Source: a virus
Length of the DNA: 42,573 nt
IMG/VR virus record: IMGVR_UViG_3300025112_000043
Span: 1-42,573 of that record
Reading direction: 5' to 3' (one strand)
Below are positions 4,998-21,690 of this stretch, piece after piece. The notes below the pieces were generated by a model, which saw only the letters and a list, made by a program, of their open reading frames with translations, ran no database searches and was not told where the DNA came from. The position numbers and the translations under genes were made by a program. Position 1 is the first letter of the stretch. Every line of letters begins with the position of its first letter.

Positions 4998-5483
4998 ATG
5001 AGCACCACCAATATTTATGGGTTGATCCCCACCAAAACATCAACTGTAGAAGTTCTACAAGCCCCCTTTACTACAGTGAAGGGTACAAACCATTGGCCTG
5101 GAGAATCTGTGGGGGATAATCAACAAAATGCTTTTTTTAATTCTCAAAGCGGTCGAATTCTTGTTGAAAAGGGTATTAAAGATGTCTTGTCTACATCACC
5201 AGGAGAAAGATTAATGCTTATGGATTATGGGGTAGATTTGATTCCTTATCTTTTTGAGCCGTTAGATGATACTACTGCGTATGAGATGAGAGAAGCGGTA
5301 ATTACTGCTATAAGTAGTTATTTTGGAGAGGTAGTAAAAATAATGGATGTTAAAATTGAGTTTAGTGATAAAACTAAATACCAAGGGGTTCCTGGGATTG
5401 TGATAAGTCTTCTACTAAAAATCTTAGATCCTGACCCTAACTTAAATATAAGCGATATGTTTGTAACAACGGTGGAGCTATAA
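4998..5483 (+). CDS. gp25: Baseplate wedge subunit gp25 (GPW/gp25 family)
   Basis: A 161-residue protein, close to the usual length for gp25/gpW. Residues about 50-90 carry the family signature: an 'I..GIKDVLSTSPGER' segment, then a 'DYGVDLIPYLFEPLDD' segment. The conserved E-R and the F-E-P turn are both present. This protein sits in the inner baseplate wedge, contacts gp6 and nucleates sheath assembly. The start ATG follows the upstream TAA directly and has no clear ribosome binding site, so it probably relies on coupling. It is followed by the gp6 gene after one base, the conserved W-J order of contractile tails. Confidence 0.92.
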   Translation: MSTTNIYGLIPTKTSTVEVLQAPFTTVKGTNHWPGESVGDNQQNAFFNSQSGRILVEKGIKDVLSTSPGERLMLMDYGVDLIPYLFEPLDDTTAYEMREAVITAISSYFGEVVKIMDVKIEFSDKTKYQGVPGIVISLLLKILDPDPNLNISDMFVTTVEL

Positions 5484-5484
5484 A

Positions 5485-7125
5485 ATGGCATATGAAGGTA
5501 CAACGGGACTAGGATCAAATATAGAGATCCCCTTTACTACAGCAGCGTCTGATTTTGTAAAATTAGCTACTCTTTCTGATAATAGAAAGCTACAGGAGAT
5601 AGATTACGGAGCTACTGATTTTATTACGCTTAAGGAATCTTTAATTAACTATATTAAGGTGGTTTATCCCACAGAATTTACAAATTTTAACGAATCTGAC
5701 CTCTCAATTATGTTGATAGAGGTTGTAGCCTACATGGGAGCCGTCTTATCTATGAAAGCTGACATGTTAGCTAACGAAAGCTTCTTAGCTACTGCCAAAA
5801 ATAGAAATAATGTAGCAAAAATACTGAATTTGATCGGTGTATCCATGAAAGGTCCTATTTCTTCAGCGGCAAATGCAGAACTTACACTATTTACCGATCT
5901 TATTTATCCTGATTCAGGTTTAGTAATTGAACCAAGAAATAGGATAGTGGGGATTGTTTCTCCCGAAGACAATTTACCTTTAACATTTACTCTAAGTAAG
6001 GTGTCTAACGGTGTTTTAGAAAATATGTCGCCTGATGGGTCCATCCATCTTGAAAATGCTGAAGCTACCCCTACTGGTGGGGGAGAACGGGTCTGGAATA
6101 ATCTTATTTTGTTAGAGGGTGCGTTAGTTACCCAACAGGGGACTTTTTTAAATAGTGATGGGATAAAAACAATCGAATTGGACGAAAATCCTGTAGTACA
6201 GGGAAGTATTGAGGTTTTTGTGGATAGCGCGGACCCTACAGCGTCTGGGGTTTATAGTGAAGTAGAGAACCTTTTTATGGCTTCCTCTTTAGATGCTAAA
6301 ATTTTTGAAGTTCTACCTTCTTTAGATGGGGGTGGCACTATTATTTTCGGGGACGGCACTAACGGAGTTTCCCCACCCGCACAGTCAGACTACTTTTTAG
6401 CTTATAGAGTAGGGGGTGGGACTAGGGGGAACCTACCCGAGCAAGCTATTAACACCTTATTTCAGGCAACAGGGGATTCTGGAACACCCTACAAAGGAAG
6501 ACTAACCAATACTAGCCTAGCAACTGGGGGTGCAAATGCTGAAACGGTTGGCGAAGCCAAAGCTACTGCCCCCCAAACCTTCAGGAGGCAAGATAGAATT
6601 GTTACCTTGGATGATTATGTAGCATTTGTAATGGCTTATGTTGGACCTTTCGGTAAAGTAGGAAAGGGTATAGCTGCTACTAGACAATCGTACTCCTCTG
6701 CGAATATTATTGATATTTATGTACTAGAGGTGGCAAGTCCTTATCAATTACAGAAGGCTACTTTGAGTTATAAGAATTCTTTATTACATGCTATGAAGCC
6801 CAAAAAGATGATTACTGACGAAGTTGTAATTAATGATGGGTATATTGCTTCCTTAGATTTAGTAGTTACGATTAGATTAGACACTATTAACAAAACTAGA
6901 GAAGGGGCTATTAAAGGAAAAGTTCAGAATATCATTACTCAGTACTTCGCTGCGGTCAATAGGGGGTTTGGGGAGCCTTTTATCCCTTCTGATTTGTTGC
7001 AGCAATTATACAACTTAAGAGAAATTCGTTTCTCTACTGTAGATAACCTATCCGATACGGTACAAGTAGATTTTAATGCAATAATTCAATTAAATAACTT
7101 GGTAATCAATGTAGCTTATATTTAA
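5485..7125 (+). CDS. gp6: Baseplate wedge protein gp6 / baseplate J
   Basis: A 546-residue protein of the gp6/gpJ type. The N-terminal part has the typical 'LKESLINYIKVVYPTEF' and 'ESDLSIMLIEVVAYMGAVLS' helices, followed by 'NRNNVAKILNLIGV' and a beta-rich middle. The C-terminal half carries 'RRQDRIVTLDDYVAFVMAY', a ferredoxin-like repeat region, and the final 'NRGFGEPFIPSDLLQQLYNL' block seen in this family. gp6 forms the dimeric ring that joins baseplate wedges around the hub and pairs with gp25. A good ribosome binding site (GGTGGAG at about 5471-5477) precedes the ATG. The stop is followed at once by the ATG of the gpI-like gene, completing the conserved W-J-I order. Confidence 0.92.
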   Translation: MAYEGTTGLGSNIEIPFTTAASDFVKLATLSDNRKLQEIDYGATDFITLKESLINYIKVVYPTEFTNFNESDLSIMLIEVVAYMGAVLSMKADMLANESFLATAKNRNNVAKILNLIGVSMKGPISSAANAELTLFTDLIYPDSGLVIEPRNRIVGIVSPEDNLPLTFTLSKVSNGVLENMSPDGSIHLENAEATPTGGGERVWNNLILLEGALVTQQGTFLNSDGIKTIELDENPVVQGSIEVFVDSADPTASGVYSEVENLFMASSLDAKIFEVLPSLDGGGTIIFGDGTNGVSPPAQSDYFLAYRVGGGTRGNLPEQAINTLFQATGDSGTPYKGRLTNTSLATGGANAETVGEAKATAPQTFRRQDRIVTLDDYVAFVMAYVGPFGKVGKGIAATRQSYSSANIIDIYVLEVASPYQLQKATLSYKNSLLHAMKPKKMITDEVVINDGYIASLDLVVTIRLDTINKTREGAIKGKVQNIITQYFAAVNRGFGEPFIPSDLLQQLYNLREIRFSTVDNLSDTVQVDFNAIIQLNNLVINVAYI

Positions 7126-10100
7126 ATGACACAAAACAAGCAACAATTTTTTAAGCGAAATTATGTAGACGCTATGGAGCCTCTGATTCCTAGCGTCCAT
7201 AAGAACCGAGACGATGAAGTAGTAACCCAAGAAACAAGCATCGAATCAGATATCATAAATTCGCACCTTAATCTTATGCAAGATTTTGTTAAATTGGTTG
7301 GTCCTACATCTGCCATCGACAACACAATAGCGCAGGATATTAATGATCCTGAGTCTTTATCGAAGTTTTTCGTTAAGCAGAATAATCTTACTAAAATTAC
7401 CCCCCATTCTTTTGAGTACAACATTCTTAAGCCTTTAGGGTTAGAGTATGTTGATTTTAGTACTTCCGCAGACTTTAAATACTACTTAGAGGAAACTCTT
7501 CTACCTGCTTTATCTGTTAGCTCGATGGGTTTTCCTGGGGCTTACTACGAAACATATACTCACCCCAGACGGAAGCTTCTGTATCAGTATGGAAACACCT
7601 GCTCTAGTGTGCATCTTCACTTGATGGAAAATTTAGGTCTCTTTTATATGCTTAATAGAGGATACCCACCCCCACTTAACCATATTTTAGACCAACGCTT
7701 TTGGGGTACTAATATTAATTTCCAGCAAAACCAAGAGTGGGGTCCAGGTGAAGGTCCACCTAAATTTGGCATACCTGATACCATAGAATATAATAATCCT
7801 ATGCGATTTAATTGGGATAATGATTCCTCTACTATTAGCAAGTACACTTCTGGTATCGGCCCTGACCCCTTTGGGGAGAATAATGCGACTAGGTGTAAGT
7901 TACAAACTCCTACAGAGGAGAGTTGGCCTGTTATCCCCGATAAAACTGGAGCCACCATTAGGCTTAGGGTAAAGAATGCTGGGTTCGGCACCTCAGGTAA
8001 CATTTATTGGTCCTTTTGGGTTAGAGCTAAAAAGTTTACAGGGAGCATGGACTACACAAACCCTGCTTTAACGGGTAAATGGGTAAGGACTACTCACATG
8101 GGGCACGGTCATGCAGGACCTAATAGAATTTATCCCGTTACCTCGCATTGGCAACAATGCATTTTACGCGCAGCGGAACAGTACACCCAAGCAGAGTATG
8201 AGCTACTAAACAACAAGAGGTTTATTAAATACTACATTAAACCTAAATGGTCTGCCGTAGGGCACGGACATCCTGATGTAGGGTGGTGGCAGGGTCCCGC
8301 TTGGCCTGAGTATTGGCAAGATGGAGATGAAATCGAGTACGCCTATCCTGCGATTTACATTGATACATGTGAGCATGGTATAGGAGCTAGATCCTATAGC
8401 AGCCCTACAGTAGGTAAGCAGAAACTGGCTCCTGATATTTCCCCTGAAGACTATCTTAAATGCTCTCCAAGTGGTGGGTATAATGCCGCTCAAGGGTATG
8501 CTGATTCGATAAAGCCTTTAGTAATTCATGGGGGAGCTAATACTCCTGATGCTTGGAGGTTTGTAGACTTTCTAACCTGGAAAGATACTGAGATGGGGTG
8601 GTATGAGTCCGTAGAAACAGAAGAAGGATTCTACACCTTGGTCGATGCTGTTAAAGCTTTTTGGGTAGGCTCTCACTTTAATTATCGCTTCTCCTTATCC
8701 GAATATACTCTGCCAGCATGTGCTGGGAACGCTCAGTTTATCACAGGTACAGGGGGGAACGCTACCGACCCTGAGTTATTACTAGGAGGGACCGCTGCTT
8801 CTGTAACTAAAATACATAATTCCAATGAGTTTTCTATGGGGGGAGTCACTCATCACCTAGCCTTAGAATCTAAGAAGAGCTATAAATTTACGGTGTACAT
8901 TGCCAAGCAAGGGGATCGCATAGTGAATCAAGGGTTTGAGGATGAAACCGCTGATGTCGTTTCTTTAATAGAGTTTGCTTATTGTGGCGATTACCCTACA
9001 TCTCCTGCAAGCATTATAGATTGTGGAGAAGCTTACTGTTTCGATCCCAATGGAAATACTATTATTCCTGATAACTTCTCTTATCATAGATTATGGTTAA
9101 ACTGGAGTAAAGACGCTAATACAGTAAGTAGCGTGTACAGCGATTTCGGTAATACCCCAGACCATTCTTATGAAGTAGAAGATATTGGAGTTACAGGGTG
9201 GTATAAAGTTTCTCTTAATTTAACTATCGACCCTTCAGGTACGCATGATAAAAACGCCCTTAATTCCCAAGGTGTACCAATGGGGGATCCCTACGGCATC
9301 CTTACAATATACCCAACGAGGCATTATAAGCCTGGGATGAACTTCTCTAGATCTCCTCAGGACCCTATTACGACCCCTACCGTGCCAAATGCCCTTATGG
9401 GGCTTGGTAGAACCTATGTAACAGACGCAAGTTACACTTTACCTGATGATTTTTCCGCTTCTGGGGAGGTTTTTACCTTCTCTATGGCTAAAAGAAATGT
9501 GTCCTATAAGGAGTGGGAAGGACCGTACATCTCCCGCTTCGGCGCGGACCCAAGTGCGGGAGTTGTAAGTAATTTGCTAAAGTTATATCACGGAGAAACC
9601 ATAAATACTAATGACGCTGTTAATGCGTATCAGGAATACATCTGGGATAATTATTATGGATCTCACAGTATGTATAATCAGGATCCAGTAGGTAATAACC
9701 CTTATGCTGTCGATCCTAACTATGGTGTTAATAGAGGTCTTTCCTCAATCAATGATGATTATCTACCTAAGAAGTTCTTACGGGAAAACAGCTTGTATGC
9801 GTCAGGTAATCAAAATCTATCTAAGCTGTATACCTTAAACGATATAATGTACTCTCCTCTTTACGCGGATAGAGATGATCTTCGCGTTAAACAAGCTATA
9901 AATAATTACTTCGTATTGGGTAAGTATGTTACTGATAAAAAGCAGTTAGGTCCATTGTTTAAACTTCTTCAGGCTATCGGATATATAACATTTGATATCA
10001 ATGATCAAGTAGAAAGACTACAGCAGTTAATAAGTATTAAGGATTGCCCTGATGAACTGCTGCCTTACCTTGCAGACATTATTGGGTGGAAACTATATGG

Positions 10101-10281
10101 GTATAATGTTAACTCATGGAGAAGACAACTTTGGAATGCGGTAGCTCTTTATAACGCAAAAGGCTCCGTGTATGGGCTCGAAAAAGCACTTGAGGTTGTG
10201 CTCCCTAATCACCCACTTCTCGTAAATGGGGAGTTTTTTGAGGACGAAAGCGCAGTAAATCTGCTAGGAGATGGCGAATGA
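7126..10281 (+). CDS. gpI/gp7-like baseplate wedge protein with lectin-like insertion
   Basis: A 1051-residue protein. Its last 130 residues carry the tail-protein-I signature: CPDELLPYLADIIGW near residue 972, then SWRRQLWNAVALYNAKGSV and a Gly-Leu-rich helix. P2 gpI corresponds to T4 gp7, the third wedge component next to gp6 and gp25, and the position right after gp25 and gp6 agrees. The N-terminal 200 residues look like a conserved wedge region (for example LLYQYGNTCSSVHLHLMENL). Between them lies a long beta-rich insertion, about residues 230-800, with jelly-roll-type strands such as IYWSFWVRAKKF and YKFTVYIAKQGD, each followed by a W/YYKV-type strand. Two GHGH motifs occur in the insertion. 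This is far longer than P2 gpI and similar in length to T4 gp7. The end overlaps the next start (ATGA). The wedge call is good; the lectin-like insertion is inferred from strand pattern. Confidence 0.75.
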   Translation: MTQNKQQFFKRNYVDAMEPLIPSVHKNRDDEVVTQETSIESDIINSHLNLMQDFVKLVGPTSAIDNTIAQDINDPESLSKFFVKQNNLTKITPHSFEYNILKPLGLEYVDFSTSADFKYYLEETLLPALSVSSMGFPGAYYETYTHPRRKLLYQYGNTCSSVHLHLMENLGLFYMLNRGYPPPLNHILDQRFWGTNINFQQNQEWGPGEGPPKFGIPDTIEYNNPMRFNWDNDSSTISKYTSGIGPDPFGENNATRCKLQTPTEESWPVIPDKTGATIRLRVKNAGFGTSGNIYWSFWVRAKKFTGSMDYTNPALTGKWVRTTHMGHGHAGPNRIYPVTSHWQQCILRAAEQYTQAEYELLNNKRFIKYYIKPKWSAVGHGHPDVGWWQGPAWPEYWQDGDEIEYAYPAIYIDTCEHGIGARSYSSPTVGKQKLAPDISPEDYLKCSPSGGYNAAQGYADSIKPLVIHGGANTPDAWRFVDFLTWKDTEMGWYESVETEEGFYTLVDAVKAFWVGSHFNYRFSLSEYTLPACAGNAQFITGTGGNATDPELLLGGTAASVTKIHNSNEFSMGGVTHHLALESKKSYKFTVYIAKQGDRIVNQGFEDETADVVSLIEFAYCGDYPTSPASIIDCGEAYCFDPNGNTIIPDNFSYHRLWLNWSKDANTVSSVYSDFGNTPDHSYEVEDIGVTGWYKVSLNLTIDPSGTHDKNALNSQGVPMGDPYGILTIYPTRHYKPGMNFSRSPQDPITTPTVPNALMGLGRTYVTDASYTLPDDFSASGEVFTFSMAKRNVSYKEWEGPYISRFGADPSAGVVSNLLKLYHGETINTNDAVNAYQEYIWDNYYGSHSMYNQDPVGNNPYAVDPNYGVNRGLSSINDDYLPKKFLRENSLYASGNQNLSKLYTLNDIMYSPLYADRDDLRVKQAINNYFVLGKYVTDKKQLGPLFKLLQAIGYITFDINDQVERLQQLISIKDCPDELLPYLADIIGWKLYGYNVNSWRRQLWNAVALYNAKGSVYGLEKALEVVLPNHPLLVNGEFFEDESAVNLLGDGE

Positions 10282-13200
10282 CCCCCACCCCTGGATCCTT
10301 ATACAGCCCCCACTGCTGGAACGGGCTCAATTCCCCCGTCACGCGCAGTTGGCACTCTCTAAATAATTCGTTAAAGATATTAGACGATCCCACCACCGCG
10401 CCTGATGGAAGTTTGGTTCCTAGCTATTTCGCAAAAGAGGAGTTCTCTTATAATGCTAATACCCCTGGGGATAGTGCGGTCATCCTTCAAAATATTGCCT
10501 TAAAGAATAGAGAAACCTATACCTTTAGCGTGTATGTAAAATGGAGTGATGCGATGGTAGATGCTATTGCGGCATCCCCATTGGATTATACACAAACCAC
10601 CACGGTAAAGATTAGGTTCCCTGCTGTAAACGGTATTTATCACGACCAAGTACATTTAGGGGTTAAGTGGGCTTTGCCTGATCCCAACTCTACCTTAAAC
10701 GCTGGGGATGTTTCTGGGGTGTGGGTAGATACCGATCCTTATCAAGGGTATCAGAGTAGCCCAGGCTTATTTACCGATCAAGGGTATAGTAGGGATAAGG
10801 ATGACTGGTGGCGTGTCTGGGTTACTATGAACTTTAACCCTCTAGGGGTACAAGGAGAGCAGAGGTTAGCGACCGTGATGATTCGCCCAGGAGGAGTAGA
10901 AGGACCTGGAGCTTTACCTAGCGTGGATCAGTGCCCTGCTGGGCAGGGGGGAGCGGGAGATGGAGATGGCAACGGTGGTGGAGAGGGTGAATGTAATCAA
11001 GACACGGACTGCCCTACAGGGTGGGTGTGTGCTGATGGAGTTTGTGTAGACCCTGGAGGGGGTGGCGACGGCTCAGTGTACGGCTGCACCAATTCAACCG
11101 CATGTAATTATAACCCTGATGCTACAATAGATGATGGCAGTTGTGAGCTTGGAAGCTGGGAGACTTGCTGGGGTTGCATGGATGACGGAGAGCAACTGTG
11201 GAGTCCTCACCCTGGGCAACCAGCATGTAATTATGATTTAAATGCAGTTTGGCCTCCTAATGCTGCTACAGGTAGATGTGAGTATGCAGGATACGGGGAT
11301 CTAATTAATAGAGATTGTGAAGGCAACTGCGTTAATGATTTTAATGGAGATGGTATTTGTGACGAAGAAGATGTATATGGATGCGCTGATCCTTATGCAT
11401 GTAACTATAAACCTGCTGTCACGGTAGATGATGGAAGTTGTTGGTATGCCCCAGAAGAGACTGGGGACTGTGGGGACTTTGTTGGGTGTATGGACCCCAC
11501 CTGCCATTCGTATGAACCTAACGCTACTATCCCATGTGAGGACTGCTGCTTCGGATGTGATGATACTGGAGGTGGTGGTGGAAACACCTGGATAGAAGGG
11601 TGTATGGATGAGGATGCTACCAACTTTGACCCACTAGCAACTAAGACCTGTCCTATTATTTTTGGATTTAACTGTTGTGAGTATATATGTGAAATTGGTG
11701 GAGACGCAAATGTTTGGATAGATATTGAAGGTCCTTACATTGATCCCGTTTTTGGAGGGAGCAACTTCCCTGATCATCCCTTTACGCCTAGTCTGAGAAA
11801 TATATATCTAGAATCAGATACCCCACATTCTGACCCCCAGGCGGGTACTTACCATGTTGATTGGGAGTCTGAGGGAAGTAACCTTTATGGGGCAGGTCAG
11901 GGCGATTACGATAGGTGGCACAGTCTCAGTATCGCTAAAGGGCAGTTACCTTGGATGTCTAGAGAGCATAATGTTGATGCTAGTGCGTTATCTTGGATGG
12001 CAGAGACTATAAGAGGTGGGAACCAGTTCGCGGAGTTTGACAGGACTATGCTTACTGGAGGGTTTGGTTTCTTATCTGACCCCGTTGGGAATTCTTGGAG
12101 CAACGAAACCTGGGATATGGACACCCGCATAAACGGAGGTTTCCACAGTAAGCAGGGTGGACGAGTAACCCATTACTGGAAAGACGGTATAGATATAAAC
12201 AATATTTTCCATCCTTGTCCTGAAATTCAAAAAATGGAAACAGAGTATCTATTTAATGAACCCGCTAGAGGATTGCCTATCTTTATGCCTAGAACGACTG
12301 AATATGTTGTGGGCATTGCGCAGGAGTGGGATCCTTATGGGGATTGGACTCCTGAATATAAAGTTGTTCCTACTATTACGCATCTATACAGAGATCCTAC
12401 TGTGAATCAACACTCAGGTGCTTCTACAGACCCACCCCTTCCCGAATGGGACTCTCAGCAATTGGATAGAAAACAGCAGTGGAGTTTTTACTTAAAGCCT
12501 TTCTCACACAGTACGCTTTTTGGTCAAGGGCGAAGGACTATATGGCCTGGGGGCGTTGGCACCCCATATGAGCGTTGGACAGAAAACAAATGGGGTGGGG
12601 CACTTATTGGGGGTACGAATGATGAGATGTGGATGGATCCTGATAATGTTTTCGGCACTGGGAACCAGCAAGGCTGGACCTTAACGAATATTGCTGGGGA
12701 TTCAGAAGTGGATAGCATGATTAGAATTTTTAGAGCTACTATTTCTAATAGATCTGCTTATCTTCAAAACAATGATCCTCAAGGCTTTGTTAGTCCTGAA
12801 CACTACCCCACCGACACAGACGAAGCCGTTGTAACTAATCATGCCCAGCTTCAATTATACATAATTTACGAAAAACCTGAGCAGCCTTACTTACATCCAC
12901 GATTAAAAGCTATTATCCCCTCTACTCATAATTGGGATTATGATGCAGCCACTACTTTATTACAGAATGGGGCTCTATCTCAGAGCGAACTACCACCAAA
13001 CACAGGTAAAATAGGAACCTTCCATGATTGGGGGTATACCGTAGAAAGAGGTGGATGGATACGAGTCTGGTTATCCGTAGGTCCCGAAGACACTGAGTAC
13101 GAGTTGCCTAATAATACGAATGGAGTATGGCAAGAAGAACATGAAGATGTTGTACCTGGGGCAAACGCTGGCTGGAATTACAAGACATCCGACCTCGGAG

Positions 13201-16200
13201 AAAGATTATACTTTACTACTTTAGAAGCTCTTGATAATGTGTTGGATGCAAGCGGTATTCATATTGATGGTTTGCTACCCACCCATCCTGATTATCGGTG
13301 CGGTTTCTTGACGGATGAGGGCTTTTTACGGTGCGATATCGCGAGGACGGATGGACCACTCCCAAACTATGTCCACGATGATCGCCTTGTGGCTGGCGAT
13401 TTCTCCATGTTTGGTGCTTTACATCAAAGCCGATCTTCTTCATGGGGAGGAGGACCCCCTGGAGACCTTACGGAGATCCTGCCTAGCACAGAAGGTATTG
13501 TAAACCTAAACTCTTTCCCACCCAGAGGAGAAATAGGCGCAGCTTATGTATGGAATCCAGTAGTTAATGAGGGGAATACCCCTGCGTCTTTAGATGATTT
13601 AAATCCTGAGGTTAAAAGCCCTATTCAAGAATATTATGAATCATATATACCTCGGCTAATTTATTATATGCTCTTAACATCTAGTAAATTCTTCACCGAA
13701 GAAGGGGACTGGGACTCGACTATAGCAAGTAAATTAAATATAGATAATTTTAGCGTAGATGAGAAAGAGACAAATGTAAAATACATTGTAGATCACATAC
13801 TAGCACAAACAGTAGCTAGATTCCCTGATTACTTCTACATGGGGAGTTATAAGTTTGATGTGAGTATTACTGAGGATAATAATTTATATTTGGGACCCGC
13901 CCATCAAATGCGAAATGGGGAGTGGATGACAGGAGTGGAGCATACCTCTCATGGAGTTTATCTTAAGAGGTTAGCTAATACTTCTTATGTTAATGAGGAG
14001 GATGTGTTGGTGTATGGAATGTCCTTCAACTATAGAGGACGAAATTACCCAATCCCCCCATGGGATGAAGAGAAGTTTTTCGTGAACTGTGATGTCTCGG
14101 AGGATTTAATAGATTTCCTTGCGGAGCAGCTTAGAACTTTCGGTGTGCCAGAAACCCTCTCTCAACAGTTTGAGAGTTATATCCTAGATAACACTTTACG
14201 GTTAAGCGGAGATTCAAAGATTTATAATAACTCTTTCCTTTTCTTAACTTCTTCTCTTGAAGTACCTCCAAACTATGAGGAGATTATTTCTACTTTTGAG
14301 AAAGACAGTTTTGATTACTTAAGCTTATGGAGCGGTAAATCTTCTATCTTTAATTTGGATGTCTCTTCGGGACCATTTGACGGATCATTCTTTAGGGATC
14401 AACCTTATCACGCAGATGATTTCTTTGATTCCTTACAGGTTGTACCTGATTTCTCTCCCGCTAAGAGTGACCCTAGAGTAAATGTGCAAATGTCAGATAC
14501 GGATGAAGCAGTGGGCTTAGACACCCCAGGTATAAAGATATCTTATGCTAATCAGGATCTTATCCACGATCTCTCTAGTGGATTAGGGGGGTACAGTATC
14601 TCCGCAGCAGATATGCGTGTTTCTTCTCTTGGAGGTATTGGTGGAGTTATTGATCCTACCTTTGATTTTGAGGGCTATGGAGGTCGAAACAATCACAGGC
14701 TTCTACCAGTATTCAATAGAGATCAAGTAAGTAGATTAGAAGACTCTTTAATCCAAGGGACAAGTGCGCTGTACCAACCCAACTATAGTGTGTCTTCAGG
14801 ACCCATTCCTAAAACAAAAGACTCATTTGGATTATCTTCGTTAACTAATACCTCTGGAGCGTCAGCAATAGATGTAAAAAGGAACTCTTTTAGACGAAGG
14901 AACTACTCTAATATTATCCCTACGGATAGCTGGTATAGACGAAACGGCTTTGATATGCCTAGCTTCTTAAATGCTAGTGATACTGCCTTTAATGTTTTGG
15001 GGTATGTCGCTTCGTCTCAAGAGTACCAAGACATTAGCGCCTTACATACTTATCACGATGTTTGGGGTTCGTGCCAAACCGCAGAATCCACTGATATCTT
15101 CTTCGGGATAAAAACGAATAACTGTTTCCCTTGTAGGGGAACACAAGAGTTGGTTTACGGTTTAATGAGTTACTACCAAAGTAGAAATTTACTCCCTGAG
15201 TACCTCCAGACTATAGCCAGTCTTATAGAGAAGAAGAAGAATCTAGAGGCTACGACCGCAGTACTTAGAAATAAGCCTAACTTTGATATGTCTGGGTCTT
15301 ATATGAGTGCTTCAGCTATCGCTAAAGGATCATTAACTTATGGAGAATCCATAGTAGACTACACTAACTTCGCATTTAGTGATGAATTCCATAGGCTATA
15401 TAGAGACTATGTAACCAAGTTTGAGAAGCACGGATTAGGTCAGTACTTAGCTACTGAGTATTCGGATGGGGGACCCAATATCTTATCTTTAATTTACGGA
15501 CCCACTTATTTTAATGCCAATCTTTCTTATAATGGTAGTGCTGTTGATGTAACAAACCCCTCTCTAGTAGCATCTTCGTTTGACACGGAGTATACTATTA
15601 ACTTTAATGCTAGTGCAAAAGATATAGATGTTGAGTTAAATGAATCTCCTATTGGAACTTATGTGGCTAGTGACACAACCTCTCTCTATGTACAAGGGCG
15701 AGAATTCCGTAACCCCTACATCATAAGCGCAGTAGAGCTTGTAGATACTTCGGGGGCGTACTTCCCCATAGGAGGCGAAAACGAATTCTCGCTTTTCAAG
15801 TTAAATAAAAATAGTTCTAAAAAATACGGTAATCAATTCTACAACCTTAATACGGTTCTTAAGCAAAAAAGCCGAGGAGGATTACCGAGGGTTAGATTTA
15901 GTTTAAAGGATTACGACCAAACCAAAGACGCTGAGAATAAGAAGGGACTATTAGTGCCTGATCATGATTACATGCTATCTGTAGAGACTTTGTTTGGGAG
16001 AGAAAAGCTTAACCAGTTTGGAGGAGGTAAAGTAGGTATATGGATTCATACCAAAGCAGAGTATAACCACCATAATGAGCTTGTTTTCTGGAACTGGTCT
16101 AGGGAGGGTAAATGGGAACACAATAAAGTCTCTGAGGTAACAGGTCCAAAAGGCGTATTTAAGGTTAGAGATACCTACTCTCACATCATAGATTTTAAGG

Positions 16201-17111
16201 AGGTTTATTCTCTCGATAATCACCCTGAGCCCCAAAATTCTTATGACGATACGGCTGCATACCTTATGTCTATCTTAAAGAAGGAGGATTTCAATACTAC
16301 TAAAATACCTTTTAATACTTTAAATAGGGATATAAAAGTGCCGTTTGAATATTATGAGGCGCATAATCAGGTCCACCGAACTGATCAGGATTATATTATT
16401 GAGGTATTCTCTTTCCCAAGCAAGCAGTTAGATAAGTATATGCTTTTAGATGGTATCTCCGTGGTTGATTTGATCGAAAATGAGAGAGTAAATATCCCAT
16501 ACTCTTTCTCAGTTCCAGATTTCTCACCCTCTTTTACTAACAGTAAAAAGTACTCTTTTTACGACAGTACGGGGGAGGAGCTTCCCTACGGTACTCCCTT
16601 TATAGTAGACACCAGCGGGGTTGTAACTAATGAAGATATAGGTGCCATTACAGTAGGTATAGGGAAACCTCAAGGGGTTGAGCAGGGTATGTATACGCAG
16701 GTTTCATCCTACCAGATGTCAGGTTATTATAATGACGCATCTTCAGCCCCTCAATTAGGGTTCCCGCAGGGGTGGTTTATGCAAGAAGATCAAAGTACCC
16801 TTACCCCTTCCTCTATAGCTTTAATAGGGTTAACGCATGGAACCCATATTAAGAAGAATTATCTTTCCTCAATACAAGTAGATCCTGGTGAGTTACTAAA
16901 TATATTTAGATACTTTAATTCAATAGCCGAAGGGAAAGCGTCCCGTGTAGCTACGGATACTAGTGGATGGAACCCCCGTCAGTTGCAGAATGGAACTTCG
17001 TTTGAATTCTCTGGTGGAAGTAGAGAAAGCTATAGAACGCATCCTTTCTGGGATGGTAGTGGTATAATAGTAGAGACGGATCAATACACTTCGATAGATA
17101 TAAATAATTAA
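10278..17111 (+). CDS. Giant modular baseplate/adhesion protein with cysteine-rich repeats
   Basis: A 2277-residue protein starting at an ATGA overlap with the gpI-like gene. It begins with a carbohydrate-binding-like jelly-roll module (YTFSVYVKWSD near residue 80, WWRVWVTMNF near 175). A Gly/Asp linker and a cysteine-rich stretch follow (residues about 218-474, listed separately). Further jelly-roll-type strands follow (QQWSFYLKPF near residue 733; GGWIRVWLSVG near 925). The C-terminal half lacks obvious repeats; it contains RRRNYSNIIPTDSWYRRNGF and GSCQTAESTDIFFGIKTNN, which look like a structured virion protein but which I cannot name. There is no signal peptide or membrane segment. Translational coupling to a wedge protein suggests it is attached to the baseplate edge. 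The function is probably surface recognition combined with structure; no enzymatic motif was seen. Confidence 0.75.
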   Translation: MTPTPGSLYSPHCWNGLNSPVTRSWHSLNNSLKILDDPTTAPDGSLVPSYFAKEEFSYNANTPGDSAVILQNIALKNRETYTFSVYVKWSDAMVDAIAASPLDYTQTTTVKIRFPAVNGIYHDQVHLGVKWALPDPNSTLNAGDVSGVWVDTDPYQGYQSSPGLFTDQGYSRDKDDWWRVWVTMNFNPLGVQGEQRLATVMIRPGGVEGPGALPSVDQCPAGQGGAGDGDGNGGGEGECNQDTDCPTGWVCADGVCVDPGGGGDGSVYGCTNSTACNYNPDATIDDGSCELGSWETCWGCMDDGEQLWSPHPGQPACNYDLNAVWPPNAATGRCEYAGYGDLINRDCEGNCVNDFNGDGICDEEDVYGCADPYACNYKPAVTVDDGSCWYAPEETGDCGDFVGCMDPTCHSYEPNATIPCEDCCFGCDDTGGGGGNTWIEGCMDEDATNFDPLATKTCPIIFGFNCCEYICEIGGDANVWIDIEGPYIDPVFGGSNFPDHPFTPSLRNIYLESDTPHSDPQAGTYHVDWESEGSNLYGAGQGDYDRWHSLSIAKGQLPWMSREHNVDASALSWMAETIRGGNQFAEFDRTMLTGGFGFLSDPVGNSWSNETWDMDTRINGGFHSKQGGRVTHYWKDGIDINNIFHPCPEIQKMETEYLFNEPARGLPIFMPRTTEYVVGIAQEWDPYGDWTPEYKVVPTITHLYRDPTVNQHSGASTDPPLPEWDSQQLDRKQQWSFYLKPFSHSTLFGQGRRTIWPGGVGTPYERWTENKWGGALIGGTNDEMWMDPDNVFGTGNQQGWTLTNIAGDSEVDSMIRIFRATISNRSAYLQNNDPQGFVSPEHYPTDTDEAVVTNHAQLQLYIIYEKPEQPYLHPRLKAIIPSTHNWDYDAATTLLQNGALSQSELPPNTGKIGTFHDWGYTVERGGWIRVWLSVGPEDTEYELPNNTNGVWQEEHEDVVPGANAGWNYKTSDLGERLYFTTLEALDNVLDASGIHIDGLLPTHPDYRCGFLTDEGFLRCDIARTDGPLPNYVHDDRLVAGDFSMFGALHQSRSSSWGGGPPGDLTEILPSTEGIVNLNSFPPRGEIGAAYVWNPVVNEGNTPASLDDLNPEVKSPIQEYYESYIPRLIYYMLLTSSKFFTEEGDWDSTIASKLNIDNFSVDEKETNVKYIVDHILAQTVARFPDYFYMGSYKFDVSITEDNNLYLGPAHQMRNGEWMTGVEHTSHGVYLKRLANTSYVNEEDVLVYGMSFNYRGRNYPIPPWDEEKFFVNCDVSEDLIDFLAEQLRTFGVPETLSQQFESYILDNTLRLSGDSKIYNNSFLFLTSSLEVPPNYEEIISTFEKDSFDYLSLWSGKSSIFNLDVSSGPFDGSFFRDQPYHADDFFDSLQVVPDFSPAKSDPRVNVQMSDTDEAVGLDTPGIKISYANQDLIHDLSSGLGGYSISAADMRVSSLGGIGGVIDPTFDFEGYGGRNNHRLLPVFNRDQVSRLEDSLIQGTSALYQPNYSVSSGPIPKTKDSFGLSSLTNTSGASAIDVKRNSFRRRNYSNIIPTDSWYRRNGFDMPSFLNASDTAFNVLGYVASSQEYQDISALHTYHDVWGSCQTAESTDIFFGIKTNNCFPCRGTQELVYGLMSYYQSRNLLPEYLQTIASLIEKKKNLEATTAVLRNKPNFDMSGSYMSASAIAKGSLTYGESIVDYTNFAFSDEFHRLYRDYVTKFEKHGLGQYLATEYSDGGPNILSLIYGPTYFNANLSYNGSAVDVTNPSLVASSFDTEYTINFNASAKDIDVELNESPIGTYVASDTTSLYVQGREFRNPYIISAVELVDTSGAYFPIGGENEFSLFKLNKNSSKKYGNQFYNLNTVLKQKSRGGLPRVRFSLKDYDQTKDAENKKGLLVPDHDYMLSVETLFGREKLNQFGGGKVGIWIHTKAEYNHHNELVFWNWSREGKWEHNKVSEVTGPKGVFKVRDTYSHIIDFKEVYSLDNHPEPQNSYDDTAAYLMSILKKEDFNTTKIPFNTLNRDIKVPFEYYEAHNQVHRTDQDYIIEVFSFPSKQLDKYMLLDGISVVDLIENERVNIPYSFSVPDFSPSFTNSKKYSFYDSTGEELPYGTPFIVDTSGVVTNEDIGAITVGIGKPQGVEQGMYTQVSSYQMSGYYNDASSAPQLGFPQGWFMQEDQSTLTPSSIALIGLTHGTHIKKNYLSSIQVDPGELLNIFRYFNSIAEGKASRVATDTSGWNPRQLQNGTSFEFSGGSRESYRTHPFWDGSGIIVETDQYTSIDINN
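11079..11700 (+). repeat. Cysteine-rich 'DDGSC' repeat region inside the giant protein
   Basis: Residues about 268-474 of the 2277-residue protein. Two well-formed copies carry ACNYNPDATIDDGSC and ACNYKPAVTVDDGSC, each preceded by Y-G-C-[TA]. Two or three degenerate copies follow or interrupt them: a GCMDPTCHSYEPNATIPC block, a GCMDEDATNFDPLATKTC block, and an interrupted GCMDD...ACNYDLNA block. Just before the second good copy is NDFNGDGICDEED, which looks like a calcium-binding EF-hand or dockerin-like loop. The cysteines are probably disulphide-bonded after release from the cell. Repeats of this form are common in secreted adhesins and sorted proteins of marine Bacteroidetes. Confidence 0.8.
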
Positions 17112-17112
17112 T

Positions 17113-20100
17113 ATGAAAGGTAAGTTAGAAGTTTACAAAAACTACGGTTCTCCTGAGGAAGAGTTAATCTTAGAAGAGAATAATTTAGTCGTAGATTCTG
17201 CGGCTGAAATGTTCGTAGACTTACTTACTACTCCATCAGGTACGCGAGTTTATAGTCCTACTCAGAGCACTAATCCAGCAAATACCCTATATGATGCTTC
17301 CAACTATCGAGTGCAAGCACTGTCTTTCGGTAAGGCTAAACCCCAATACCAATTAAATGCGTACAAATTCCCAATAAAGCCTAAGAACCTACTGAGTAAC
17401 TCTAACAATTTTGTGGATGAAGGTGTAGATTTAGTAGAGTGGAACAGGAATTTATTATCTAGAAATGTAAATCCTATATCAGGAGAGGCCTCTGGGGCTG
17501 CTTACTTTAATGAAACTAGTGGAGGGTGGTTAGTATCTAAGGGAGTAAGTTCCTATGCAAGTGGAGCCACGGACCCTGCGGGTCAGTATGAAGGAAACAC
17601 TTTGTATATGATTCCTAATGAGCAGCCTAATGTTCTTGTAGAGGGGACCAGTGCAGACGGAGGGCATGAATATATGGGCCATAATTCTGTTTGTGCTACA
17701 GATTTTCATGCTTGGAAAGTTACCGCAGGAAAAGTTCTTACTTCTCAACACGAAGACTATAAAGCGGGTTACGCTGCTCAGGCACTCTTTAGCACAGCTA
17801 ATACTTACAACGCAACTCCTCGCGCCACCGCGACTACTAATACTCTTCAAGCAAAAGGTAATTACAGAACTGGGCCAAACGCTGGAGATGCTTATATAAC
17901 TGCGTCTGGATTTTTCCTTTCTGGTATACAATCTCGGAAATTAGGCAAGGAAAAGACTGCCACTTTTAGTGTATATTATAATATAAGTGCCCTAAATGAT
18001 GGATACCCTGCCGATATAACAGCGGGTCCTGAGTTTTCTGCTGTTGCTCCAGCTAGGATCGCCTTAGCAATGGATGCTTCTTCGTTCTTTAATCCTGAAG
18101 CATATTTAAACCTATACAACACACAATACGCTACTTCACCTAATAATTTTTCACCCTGGACATCAGACGGAGCTTCAATAACAGGGGCTGCGTCTAGCTC
18201 CCCATGGGGTCCCAACACTGCTACCGAAATGAAAGTTACAGGTGGTAATAGACTAGCTTATATAGATTTTATTAATTCTGATCTGGGTTTGGTGGAGGGT
18301 GATTTTTATGGCATGAGTATGTACATTAAAAAATCTTTATCCACCCCTCCTGCTTCCAACTATAGTGATATACAGATTCGTAATGCTAAGGCTGCTGGCA
18401 ATAAAGAGGGTGCTGGTATTAAAATTCGCTTTACTTGGGACGGAAGCACTATGACCAATTATACCCTTGCTGCTCCTGGGGGTACAGGTAGCAACTTAGA
18501 GGGTTTCGCAAAAGTAAGCGAATCAGTTGGTGGGTGGTATCAAATAGCCTTAGTTATACCTAGAAAAAACTCCTCTACTTACCGAGATGTTAAAGTTGTT
18601 GTAGAGCCTCAGCCAGGAGGCAACGGTGCTCTGTATGTAGTAAATTTTGATATGTATGCTATTAGTAGGGCGCAATATTCCCCTGCTGGTATAAGTGTAC
18701 CTCGCACTTACGGAGATACTTATGAGAGCCATTTCATTCAAAATACAGGGGAAAGACTTACTTTCGATAATCAAATACGCAATATCGCGCCAGTATCAGG
18801 GGTTGAGGACGCAAGTTCGTGGAGACGGATTTCCCATGAATCCACCTTCTCCTCCACACCAGATCTATTTAAGGCTTATATAGGGACTGGTTATACAGAG
18901 GCTATGACAAGCGTAGTTCTTTCTCATCCTCAAATAGAAAAAGGATCCCCCGCTTCTTTGTGGAGTGATAGCAGCACTATTTGTGTTTATAAAGGTATAG
19001 ATGAGGATGGATTAGGTCTTACTCCAGATGCCTTACCTACAGATATAGAAAACGGGTTAGGTGTTTTAGATAAAAATTTAACCTATAGTATTTATGCTAA
19101 TCCCAGTGGTCTGTATGGAGCAAGTTCGGCTGGAACCACCTTTAGGTTTATGGATATTGGAAATGCTTTAGCAACACCTAACACTACTCTTGTCTCCATG
19201 GGCACTCCAGGCGTTGATTCTTATACTAGGCAGACCGCTTCTCCTAACTTTAGTTCATATGAATCCACCCATATAGGTATTGCTATGGAGATGTCAGGTG
19301 TTAGTGCAGGTAATCACTGCCACCTTGCTCATGCACAACTAGAGTATGACGGTAACTTTAAATTACCTGAAGCACATGATCCCCATTACACTTCTACTCC
19401 TACACCTTGGGTGAGTAGTATAGGTGTTAGTTCCGTTTCGTCTTGGAATAGTGGTAATGTACTTCACGGAATTAGTACCGCAGTTTCTACAGTATACTCT
19501 GATAGTATAGATGGTCCTTTTCCTGGTACTAAAGGAACCTTAATTTTAAACGATAGTGATGTGAGCACTTTAAGTCTACAGCAAAGAATTGTGGGCCGAA
19601 ATTTAAAGGCAGGAGTTAACACTTACTCTACTACTCCTTTTTATAATAGGAAAATGACGGCTTCTGTTTACTTAAAGTATCCCTTTACTAACCCCCCTGG
19701 GGTATCCCCAGACGCTTCAGGTTCTACTACAGGATTAGCCAGAAGAAGTGAGATCGCATTGTATCCTGGCATTGCTACTTATGGAGTAACTTCATTAAAT
19801 TCAGAAGGGGGCTACGATAAGGGGGGAAGACTGATTCTGCGATGGACGGATGTAGATGGTGCTCAGAGTCCAGGAGCAGGTAGTGCTACGATAGATAATA
19901 AAATTGCAGCAGGAAGACGCGCCGATGGGACACTAGAATACATACGAAATGGGTGGTACAGGGCTTCGGTAACTAACACCTTAGATGGTTTTACTGTTGC
20001 AAATACTAGCTCGGTAGTCTTTTCTGTTTACCCTGTGGCTAGGCACTATCCTGATATGGGTGGATCTCCTAATGCCGCTTCAGGTGGTCTTTATGTTTAT

Positions 20101-21690
20101 GGGGCTCAATTAGAATTAGGGGATCTTGCTACCTCTTATCAAGACACGGATGATTTCTTTAGTACTCCCAGTTATACGGAGATAAGCGGGACCACCTTGG
20201 ACGCTTATAAACCCAGGGATGATTTTGATTGGAGCGGTACTTTAGCTACAAGTACTATCTATGCTGAACAGCCTTATGCTAGAAAGAACTCCGAGAAGCC
20301 TCCTGTGGCAGCTAATGTTCTTAAGAGTTACTACCAGCTTTCCTCTGAGGATTGGGTTGTCCCTGCTGATTCTACTTATTTAGCTACCGCGCAAACTACT
20401 TCAGTAGTGCCTAATACCGAACCTACAGCGCAGGTTTTTTACTCTTATAATACAGGTCTAGGGGCCATATATCAAATAGTTGATGCGAGTGCATTGGAGC
20501 ATGGTAAAACATACGCTTACACCCTTTACTTAAGAAGGAGGGGAGCAGCCATACCCGCTAATGGGAAAGTGTTCAGGATGAACATTAGAAATGTAAACGG
20601 CACTAGAGAAAGTGTTCTTCATTTTGATTGGGCGACCAGTTCCGCTTCTGGTGGACCTCTTGACAGTGGCTTCCAACGAGTGGGAAGTTTCTCACGCCAG
20701 CAGTATCGAACGGTCGGTAAAAATACTAATATGCCGTGGTGGAAATTAACCTGTGTCTTCCCTTACGACAAAAATGATGGAAATGGGAATTTAAAATGTG
20801 AGATAGTTCCCTTAACTAGAATTCCTACCTCTAACACTTACGCAGGATGGGTCGCGTACCCCTCGTTACAGCCTGTAGATACTTCTTGTTATACGCCTAA
20901 CCCTATTCTTCCTGATTATCCCACCCCCTATGACACTTCCTTGGTGGATGATTATATGAGCCCTATGGCTCAATCGTTAGAGTTAAGTACGGGGTTCAAC
21001 CAAAATATGAACTTCATAGGTTATAAGGATACCTCAACGGTAAATATTAATCAGTTTAAAGCTGTCGAGATTCTTCCTCATAATACTCTTTCTGAGGATC
21101 CTAGCAACGATCTTTCAGGAGCCTTCGGATTAAACTCTTATTACTTGGGGAGTTTCCCCCCAGGAAGTGCTTCGCCCATTAGCTATGCCATTGTTTCATC
21201 CTTAGATACTTCTGAAGGACTTACCTATCCTACTGTAGAAGGTACTTACGGAGGGTACTTTAACCAAGTGAAATCTATGGATCCTTCAGGTTTCTTAAGA
21301 GCGTATCACCCTTCTTCGGTTGATTATGGGGGGATAGAGACCACTTCAGGATTAGTTACCTCATCTAACCCAGACTTTAGTAGCACTGGGGAGGTTAGTT
21401 ATATAACTACTGTGGCTTCGGGTGATTTAGGATTAGCTAATTTATATGGAGGTATTACCCAGTTAGGCTTGTGGGGATTTGATGTTCCTAGGATGGTTAA
21501 GGAAGGACGCTTGCCTCCTTATTATTTTGATGCTCAAGATGCTAATGACGCAGTAGGTAATAATCTTGCATATAGATTAATATGTAAGAAAGTTCTTAAC
21601 CAAAATATTACAAATATATTAGATGGATCAGGACCAGGAGCCCATCGTTATAACGATCTAACTTTAGTGTGGAGGTTAAATTTCTTATGA
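17113..21690 (+). CDS. Tandem carbohydrate-binding-like module tail fibre/adhesin
   Basis: A 1525-residue protein. The first ~50 residues (MKGKLEVYKNYGSPEEEL, EENNLVVDSAAEMFVDLLTT) match in pattern the N-termini of the next two genes and are probably a virion-docking module. The rest reads as about five jelly-roll modules of 150-220 residues. They typically open with a 'NLLSNSNNF..W' or 'LYNTQYATSPNNFSPW' segment, have a central strand such as TATFSVYYN, YGMSMYIKK, LTYSIYANP, MTASVYLKY or YAYTLYLRR, and a 'GWYR' or 'GWYQ' strand. One ends with YVYGAQLELGDLATSY near residue 994, the classic close of phage carbohydrate-binding-like modules. Probable role: glycan or envelope recognition. The end overlaps the next start (ATGA at 21687-21690). 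No Shine-Dalgarno site is visible before its own ATG. Confidence 0.75.
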   Translation: MKGKLEVYKNYGSPEEELILEENNLVVDSAAEMFVDLLTTPSGTRVYSPTQSTNPANTLYDASNYRVQALSFGKAKPQYQLNAYKFPIKPKNLLSNSNNFVDEGVDLVEWNRNLLSRNVNPISGEASGAAYFNETSGGWLVSKGVSSYASGATDPAGQYEGNTLYMIPNEQPNVLVEGTSADGGHEYMGHNSVCATDFHAWKVTAGKVLTSQHEDYKAGYAAQALFSTANTYNATPRATATTNTLQAKGNYRTGPNAGDAYITASGFFLSGIQSRKLGKEKTATFSVYYNISALNDGYPADITAGPEFSAVAPARIALAMDASSFFNPEAYLNLYNTQYATSPNNFSPWTSDGASITGAASSSPWGPNTATEMKVTGGNRLAYIDFINSDLGLVEGDFYGMSMYIKKSLSTPPASNYSDIQIRNAKAAGNKEGAGIKIRFTWDGSTMTNYTLAAPGGTGSNLEGFAKVSESVGGWYQIALVIPRKNSSTYRDVKVVVEPQPGGNGALYVVNFDMYAISRAQYSPAGISVPRTYGDTYESHFIQNTGERLTFDNQIRNIAPVSGVEDASSWRRISHESTFSSTPDLFKAYIGTGYTEAMTSVVLSHPQIEKGSPASLWSDSSTICVYKGIDEDGLGLTPDALPTDIENGLGVLDKNLTYSIYANPSGLYGASSAGTTFRFMDIGNALATPNTTLVSMGTPGVDSYTRQTASPNFSSYESTHIGIAMEMSGVSAGNHCHLAHAQLEYDGNFKLPEAHDPHYTSTPTPWVSSIGVSSVSSWNSGNVLHGISTAVSTVYSDSIDGPFPGTKGTLILNDSDVSTLSLQQRIVGRNLKAGVNTYSTTPFYNRKMTASVYLKYPFTNPPGVSPDASGSTTGLARRSEIALYPGIATYGVTSLNSEGGYDKGGRLILRWTDVDGAQSPGAGSATIDNKIAAGRRADGTLEYIRNGWYRASVTNTLDGFTVANTSSVVFSVYPVARHYPDMGGSPNAASGGLYVYGAQLELGDLATSYQDTDDFFSTPSYTEISGTTLDAYKPRDDFDWSGTLATSTIYAEQPYARKNSEKPPVAANVLKSYYQLSSEDWVVPADSTYLATAQTTSVVPNTEPTAQVFYSYNTGLGAIYQIVDASALEHGKTYAYTLYLRRRGAAIPANGKVFRMNIRNVNGTRESVLHFDWATSSASGGPLDSGFQRVGSFSRQQYRTVGKNTNMPWWKLTCVFPYDKNDGNGNLKCEIVPLTRIPTSNTYAGWVAYPSLQPVDTSCYTPNPILPDYPTPYDTSLVDDYMSPMAQSLELSTGFNQNMNFIGYKDTSTVNINQFKAVEILPHNTLSEDPSNDLSGAFGLNSYYLGSFPPGSASPISYAIVSSLDTSEGLTYPTVEGTYGGYFNQVKSMDPSGFLRAYHPSSVDYGGIETTSGLVTSSNPDFSSTGEVSYITTVASGDLGLANLYGGITQLGLWGFDVPRMVKEGRLPPYYFDAQDANDAVGNNLAYRLICKKVLNQNITNILDGSGPGAHRYNDLTLVWRLNFL
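21671..21675 (+). promoter_or_regulatory. Ribosome binding site GGAGG that sets the start at 21687
   Basis: GGAGG lies 11 bases before the ATG at 21687, which overlaps the upstream stop as ATGA. The alternative upstream GTG at 21669 in the same frame would place this site inside the coding region and has no site of its own. I therefore choose 21687. Confidence 0.6.

Follow-up and report, generated by a model that had tools for sequence, protein, structure and literature searches.

The window, a virus record of 42,573 bases analysed over its whole length, raises the question of why a phage tail protein should carry cysteine-rich repeats of a bacterial type, and what they might do there. The window recurs, at 99.986% identity over all 42,573 bases, in another IMG/VR record, which is 110,937 bases long (G001, IMGVR_UViG_3300002514_000012). 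This marine phage is T4-like in the genes for its head, tail, and terminase (TerL, major head protein, head protease, sheath, tube, and gp25-like and gp6-like wedge proteins), and its nearest named phages are distant, with TerL about 34% and MCP about 31% identical among the best matches listed.

A sequence-only reading had described two good and several decayed copies of a cysteine repeat in a 2277-residue protein, together with a linker of the DCEGNC type, and it was correct on both counts and in its coordinates. The unit, called DDGSC here, spans 21 residues (GCTDxxACNYDxxATxDDGSC), with the profile pattern GC-x2-4-A-x-N-[YF]-x3-A-x5-G-x-C. Using a profile of 1541 repeat instances against the six frames of the window, we found ORF 10278-17111 to be the sole significant match (E 1.5e-20). 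As a guard against circularity, the profile was rebuilt with this phage left out and, in a second step, with bacterial instances alone (n = 1316). With the bacteria-only profile the two full copies score 37.3 and 30.2 bits, which makes them members of the DDGSC family, while shuffled versions of residues 218-474 (n = 1000) peak at 5.9 bits. The ORF holds two full DDGSC copies, one partial copy, two degenerate copies, and one TSP3-like linker, arranged as follows.

10278-17111, + strand: 2277-aa tail/baseplate protein ("the giant"); residues 1-1108 are a lineage-specific insert, 1109-2065 and 2199-2275 conserved backbone
10992-11045, + strand: Cys motif CNQDTDCPTGWVCADGVC, similar to Myxo_Cys_RPT, sub-threshold
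11082-11144, + strand: R1, full DDGSC repeat, residues 269-289 (37.3 bits)
11172-11279, + strand: R2, degenerate, with an internal insertion (GCMD...ACNYDLNA...GRC), residues 299-334; by eye, with a partial match of 3.5 bits
11313-11375, + strand: linker DCEGNCVNDFNGDGICDEEDV, residues 346-366, from alignments; TSP3/dockerin-like calcium-loop pattern
11379-11441, + strand: R3, full DDGSC repeat, residues 368-388 (30.2 bits)
11484-11546, + strand: R4, degenerate copy, residues 403-423, from the sequence by eye
11598-11675, + strand: R5, incomplete; its first 15 residues (441-455) score 19.3 bits

Cysteine accounts for 30 of the 257 residues in 218-474. The linker form DCxGNCxxDxDGDGxCDE precedes a repeat once, at residues 346-366, with its invariant columns retained. 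The DDGSC repeats in this ORF are real and of bacterial type, which our analysis confirmed. The unit is recognised by no Pfam or NCBIfam model, and a motif-string search of the literature returned nothing relevant to it.

Relatives of the locus were gathered via the gp6-like protein (n = 41, identity up to 52%), and the giant and the gpI-like ORF upstream of it (gpI) were compared with them by blastp and with an ancestral profile HMM built from six of them. In the best relatives, gp6 is followed by a single gene, mostly of 1285-1430 aa (1752 aa in one), laid out as an N-terminal part, the Tail_P2_I domain, and a C-terminal part of about 900 aa; it matches, in order, gpI 5-190, gpI 808-1047, and giant 1109-2072 plus the C-terminus. 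On the ancestral profile, gpI 2-183 falls at positions 9-184, gpI 808-845 at 188-225, gpI 872-1034 at 226-389, giant 1109-2065 at 385-1289, and giant 2199-2275 at 1319-1392. Each of the two inserts thus lies between neighbouring profile positions (184/188 and 389/385) of a backbone that is conserved on both sides. At the level of sequence comparison, these alignments show that two blocks of extra domains were inserted without loss of backbone residues, and that the single gene of the relatives corresponds to two genes here, divided inside the second block.

4998-7125, + strand: gp25-like and gp6-like baseplate wedge genes, the context of gpI and the giant
7126-10281, + strand: upstream ORF, 1051 aa, gpI-like (Tail_P2_I, E 1.1e-4), N- and C-terminal backbone of the same ancestral protein
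7675-9546, + strand: insertion 1, gpI residues 184-807, 624 aa, from the ancestral profile
10265-10281, + strand: gene split inside insertion 2, with an AGGAG ribosome site and an overlapping ATGA stop/start, from the sequence
10278-13601, + strand: insertion 2, made up of giant 1-1108 and of ~17 residues at the end of the upstream ORF, between profile positions 389 and 385
10278-10928, + strand: beta-sandwich, CBM_4_9/phage spike-fibre-like, residues 1-217 of the giant; sub-threshold matches and a low-confidence model
13602-16472, + strand: conserved backbone, giant 1109-2065, E ~1e-142 to the profile of six relatives
17113-21690, + strand: 1525-aa ORF with NF048003 domains (E 1.6e-10, over cut-off); in the relatives a protein of 345-396 aa, here larger by ~1150 aa
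2688-2738, + strand: motif CEGVVCPDGYVCENGVC in a 927-aa baseplate ORF, not in that ORF's relatives

Insertion 2 is about 1125 aa long and holds the DDGSC repeats behind the carbohydrate-binding-like beta-sandwich; about 630 further residues follow the Cys-rich stretch. By blastp and ancestral profile the insertion is not present in the relatives, and a DDGSC repeat was seen in none of the 41, several of which are fragments, so that absence is not proven for each relative singly. As queries against viral contigs, insertions 1 and 2 matched only themselves; tblastn with the Cys-rich segment or the whole 2277-aa protein gave no match in named phages, and a sequence search of the PDB gave no relative. 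The GC3 of the insert is near that of the rest of the phage, and composition alone thus gives no proof of recent transfer. Together with the expanded 1525-aa ORF and the Cys motif of the 927-aa ORF, the insertions in gpI and the giant indicate that very large added domains are general in the tail region of this phage. The 1525-aa ORF is conserved at its ends only, and the lineage-specific Cys motif of the 927-aa ORF resembles CNQDTDCPTGWVCADGVC, which lies beside the DDGSC repeats.

No family in Pfam, NCBIfam, or PHROG exceeds its cut-off in the insert. The first 217 residues match CBM_4_9 (E 0.046) and the phage head spike fibre domain NF048003 (GTA_spike_fiber; E 0.019), both below cut-off, and have motifs in common with the latter; the motifs YTFSVYVK and WWRVWVT are common to this domain and to paralogous stretches. 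AlphaFold predicts an eight-stranded beta-sandwich at low confidence (pLDDT 54, pTM 0.57), for which Foldseek returned weak matches, those of best probability including phage tailspikes, fibres, and baseplates, and no PDB match at E<=0.001. Weakly, these matches and the model suggest a carbohydrate-binding-like domain. In the model of the Cys-rich stretch, R1 (pLDDT ~92) and the linker with R3 (88-95) form locally confident beads, with low-confidence or disordered segments between them, and Foldseek found nothing in the PDB similar to the model as a whole. The linker DCEGNCVNDFNGDGICDEEDV shows the DxNxDGxxDE calcium-loop pattern of bacterial TSP3 (PF18884), although here it is interleaved with DDGSC units. 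Linkers of the same type in another locus (L029) match Pfam TSP3_bac over its cut-off (E 2.6e-8), whereas the single linker of the window has no match to PF18884 even at E 10; the earlier proposal of calcium-stabilised beads draws support from L029 and not from the window's own linker. On these predictions, the DDGSC/TSP3-like stretch likely folds in a bead-like manner, and calcium binding is plausible from the sequence pattern; calcium and disulphides would stabilise the beads.

The stretch might instead be a captured, decaying fragment that serves as a flexible linker only, as the degenerate or partial state of R2, R4, and R5 and the predicted disorder between the beads would have it. We regard this as unlikely, however, given that R1, the linker, and R3 retain all consensus cysteines and the calcium-loop pattern, that the reading frame of the 2277-aa protein stays open through more than 1100 inserted residues, and that unrelated phages retain similar modules.

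Where the repeat occurs in cells bears on its origin. The best 80 genome matches, which are ordered by similarity to the window's unit and so reflect nearest kin and not breadth, are nearly all Bacteroidota by title and mostly Flavobacteriales/Crocinitomicaceae, in keeping with the earlier description of the repeats as Bacteroidetes-type; the other titles are one euryarchaeote MAG (L157) and one 'bacterium' (L151, L178). Six genomes that were checked hold between 4 and 156 DDGSC matches each. Marine Flavobacteriales proteins have the same repeat and linker sequence as the 2277-aa protein, 60-86% identical over single units, but their repeat ORFs are mostly secreted and have a median of 9 DDGSC repeats, compared with two intact copies here in a tail protein without a signal peptide. 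The HMM search and repeat tree that the sequence-only reading had proposed gave a divided answer: the nearest kin are indeed secreted proteins of Flavobacteriales, whereas the tree, over 37 columns, has one well-supported branch and does not place the window's repeat. Our view of the donor therefore rests on nearest identity, by which the window's repeats likely derive from the kind that is common in proteins secreted by marine Bacteroidota. A MAG titled Chryseobacterium gleum (L104, L130) has marine-type DDGSC proteins, and its species label may be wrong.

Breadth was sampled in Bacteroidota and in one euryarchaeal phylum. In the latter, 17 of 145 genomes match DDGSC at E<=1e-8, and in an even sample of Bacteroidota 3 of 198 match at 1e-12, two fractions that are not comparable given their different E limits. 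The L157 euryarchaeote MAG has full-length matches of the Bacteroidota form, which may be contamination; in the remaining 16 genomes the match is mostly confined to the later part of the unit, with a distinct short linker in the examples read. Genomes of this phylum encode membrane or secreted proteins (L226-L232) in which short DxDxDGxxDxxE linkers connect the DDGSC repeats. Restriction of DDGSC to Bacteroidota is ruled out by the 17 euryarchaeal-phylum genomes and by several phage groups.

The 74 viral DDGSC loci fall into two kinds. Those of the first kind encode proteins with a signal peptide, 2-23 DDGSC repeats, and a T9SS sorting domain (L032, L035-L040, most of L042-L092, L095-L097, and L099); PF18962 was matched by 34 of the 45 viral DDGSC records tested. 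At least 34 marine viral records thus encode, usually once each, a signal-peptide DDGSC-array protein with a T9SS type A sorting domain, and some of these records are large and have a terminase (G009, G017, G044). The same sorting domain (Por_Secre_tail, PF18962) has no match in the 110.9-kb record G001. Loci of the second kind encode structural or tail proteins without such a sorting domain. In three of them (L031, L041, L101), gp25-gp6 is followed by Cys-rich giants bearing the DDGSC module, and four more are L033, L034, L093, and L098. A marine relative (G002) of the crAss-like phages of the Flavobacteriia Cellulophaga, Flavobacterium, and Maribacter has DDGSC in the C-terminal part of a virion structural protein, as does G005, which is similar by eye; unlike the present phage, the crAss-like DDGSC phages have an unrelated backbone and are poor in Shine-Dalgarno (SD) sequences, and for the latter reason likely have Bacteroidota hosts. 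The 2064-aa phage protein of L033 (6356-12547) combines DDGSC repeats with what looks by eye like a cupredoxin-like C-terminus.

That Flavobacteriales genomes hold up to about 150 DDGSC copies, and that phages also encode T9SS-sorted DDGSC proteins bound for the cell surface, would fit a phage that shows its host's own surface repeat, the stretch binding host DDGSC proteins or disguising the virion. We think this improbable, since only two intact copies are present, against typically 5-23 in surface proteins, and since the phage is SD-rich, unlike known Bacteroidota phages. An equally speculative and improbable extension is that marine microbes use DDGSC/TSP3 beads as a module for surface display, which unrelated phages have captured repeatedly, both as virion tail parts and as T9SS-exported coats of the infected host, from which homotypic virion-cell contacts could follow.

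SD usage in this phage (0.45 observed, 0.13 expected) resembles that of marine T4-like phages of other hosts (0.27-0.62) and not the SD-poor state of Flavobacterium, Maribacter, and Rhodothermus phages (0.03-0.06; immuto 0.03, Panino 0.06, RM378 0.06). Bacteroidia ribosomes occlude their anti-SD (PMC9976891). Taken alone, the SD-richness speaks against a Bacteroidota host, and hence, where the sequence-only reading had envisaged such a host with domain transfer, the addition of repeats to a phage tail protein holds and the host is unsupported. Spread into phages of non-Bacteroidetes hosts, which would tell against the proposed Bacteroidetes link, may have occurred in part, to judge from the 16 further euryarchaeal-phylum genomes and from other SD-rich phages (L031, L041, L093, L101). 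As proof of a non-Bacteroidota host, SD usage looked decisive but is weakened by phage loci that encode T9SS-sorted DDGSC proteins and whose hosts are to be expected among Bacteroidota or their allies: the SD usage of these loci is bimodal, most being poor and eight rich (0.33-0.53), so that SD-richness does not exclude a Bacteroidota host. The richness of these eight (L032, L038, L039, L044, L046, L054, L055, L058) is unexpected, because the ribosomes of such hosts ignore SD sequences. Four DDGSC records encode a phage bS21, namely G030 (L260), G017 (L261), G003 (L262), and G009 (L263), with an N-terminal extension in G009 and G017. G003, G009, and G017 are SD-rich; bS21 was rejected as the cause of SD-rich phages of T9SS hosts, as G030 has bS21 yet is SD-poor and G001 is without it.

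On balance, we consider it reasonably probable that the DDGSC stretch is part of a large, lineage-specific, adhesin-type extension of a conserved contractile-tail baseplate protein, and that the insert probably extends and changes the grip of the phage on its host. This adhesin reading draws on the baseplate context, with gp25, gp6, and Tail_P2_I adjoining; on NF048003, over cut-off in the neighbouring ORF and sub-threshold here, with the paralogous motifs and the beta-sandwich model; on similar modules in tail or structural proteins of other phages, one group of them downstream of gp25-gp6; on the separate translation start with its SD, the confident bead predictions, and the TSP3_bac match of L029; on the insertion anatomy relative to the 41 relatives; and on the precedent of Dit insertions in skunaviruses, where carbohydrate-binding modules (CBMs) promote adsorption (PMC10688798). 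Counted against it are the lack of any family over cut-off in the insert, the weak fold matches, the partial or degenerate state of three of the five repeats, and the phage-like GC3. Two extra-domain blocks lie in a conserved gpI-like gene that is split inside the second; the DDGSC/TSP3-like stretch most likely forms a series of small beads, stabilised by disulphides and calcium, which would space the binding domains and present them away from the baseplate, and the phage may thereby gain reach or affinity for cell-surface glycans, as with the CBM insertions of 'evolved Dit'. As in evolved Dit, the inserts are internal to a conserved baseplate protein whose N- and C-terminal parts align with the short form, and where evolved Dit inserts carry carbohydrate-binding-type domains, the one here matches CBM_4_9 and NF048003 below cut-off. 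The differences are a contractile tail, a gpI-like fused protein, a gene split, added Cys-rich beads, and insert sizes of about 624 and 1125 aa versus 168-319 aa.

An assembly chimera of phage and Bacteroidota DNA, which the metagenomic source and the bacterial-type repeats might suggest, is very improbable, as two records agree over the whole window and one reaches 110.9 kb, the inserts are flanked by backbone segments of one protein, GC3 is phage-like, and the flanking insert is in no other viral contig.

Domain insertion in a baseplate protein is a building principle already known from other phages. The repeat inserted here, however, is without a family model and recurs in several unrelated marine phages. 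The locus shows, at residue resolution, how a conserved contractile-tail protein can accommodate over 1700 inserted residues together with a gene split. It also links a widespread, unmodelled surface repeat of bacteria and archaea with the machinery by which marine phages adhere. Many proteins could be annotated with a DDGSC profile, and as phages have DDGSC among their virion proteins as well as in their T9SS cargo, the idea that it acts where phage and host surfaces meet becomes testable. By eye, G001 also has (L010-L015) a long cluster of NAD-dependent epimerase, glycosyltransferase, and aminotransferase-like genes, which suggests surface-glycan remodelling.
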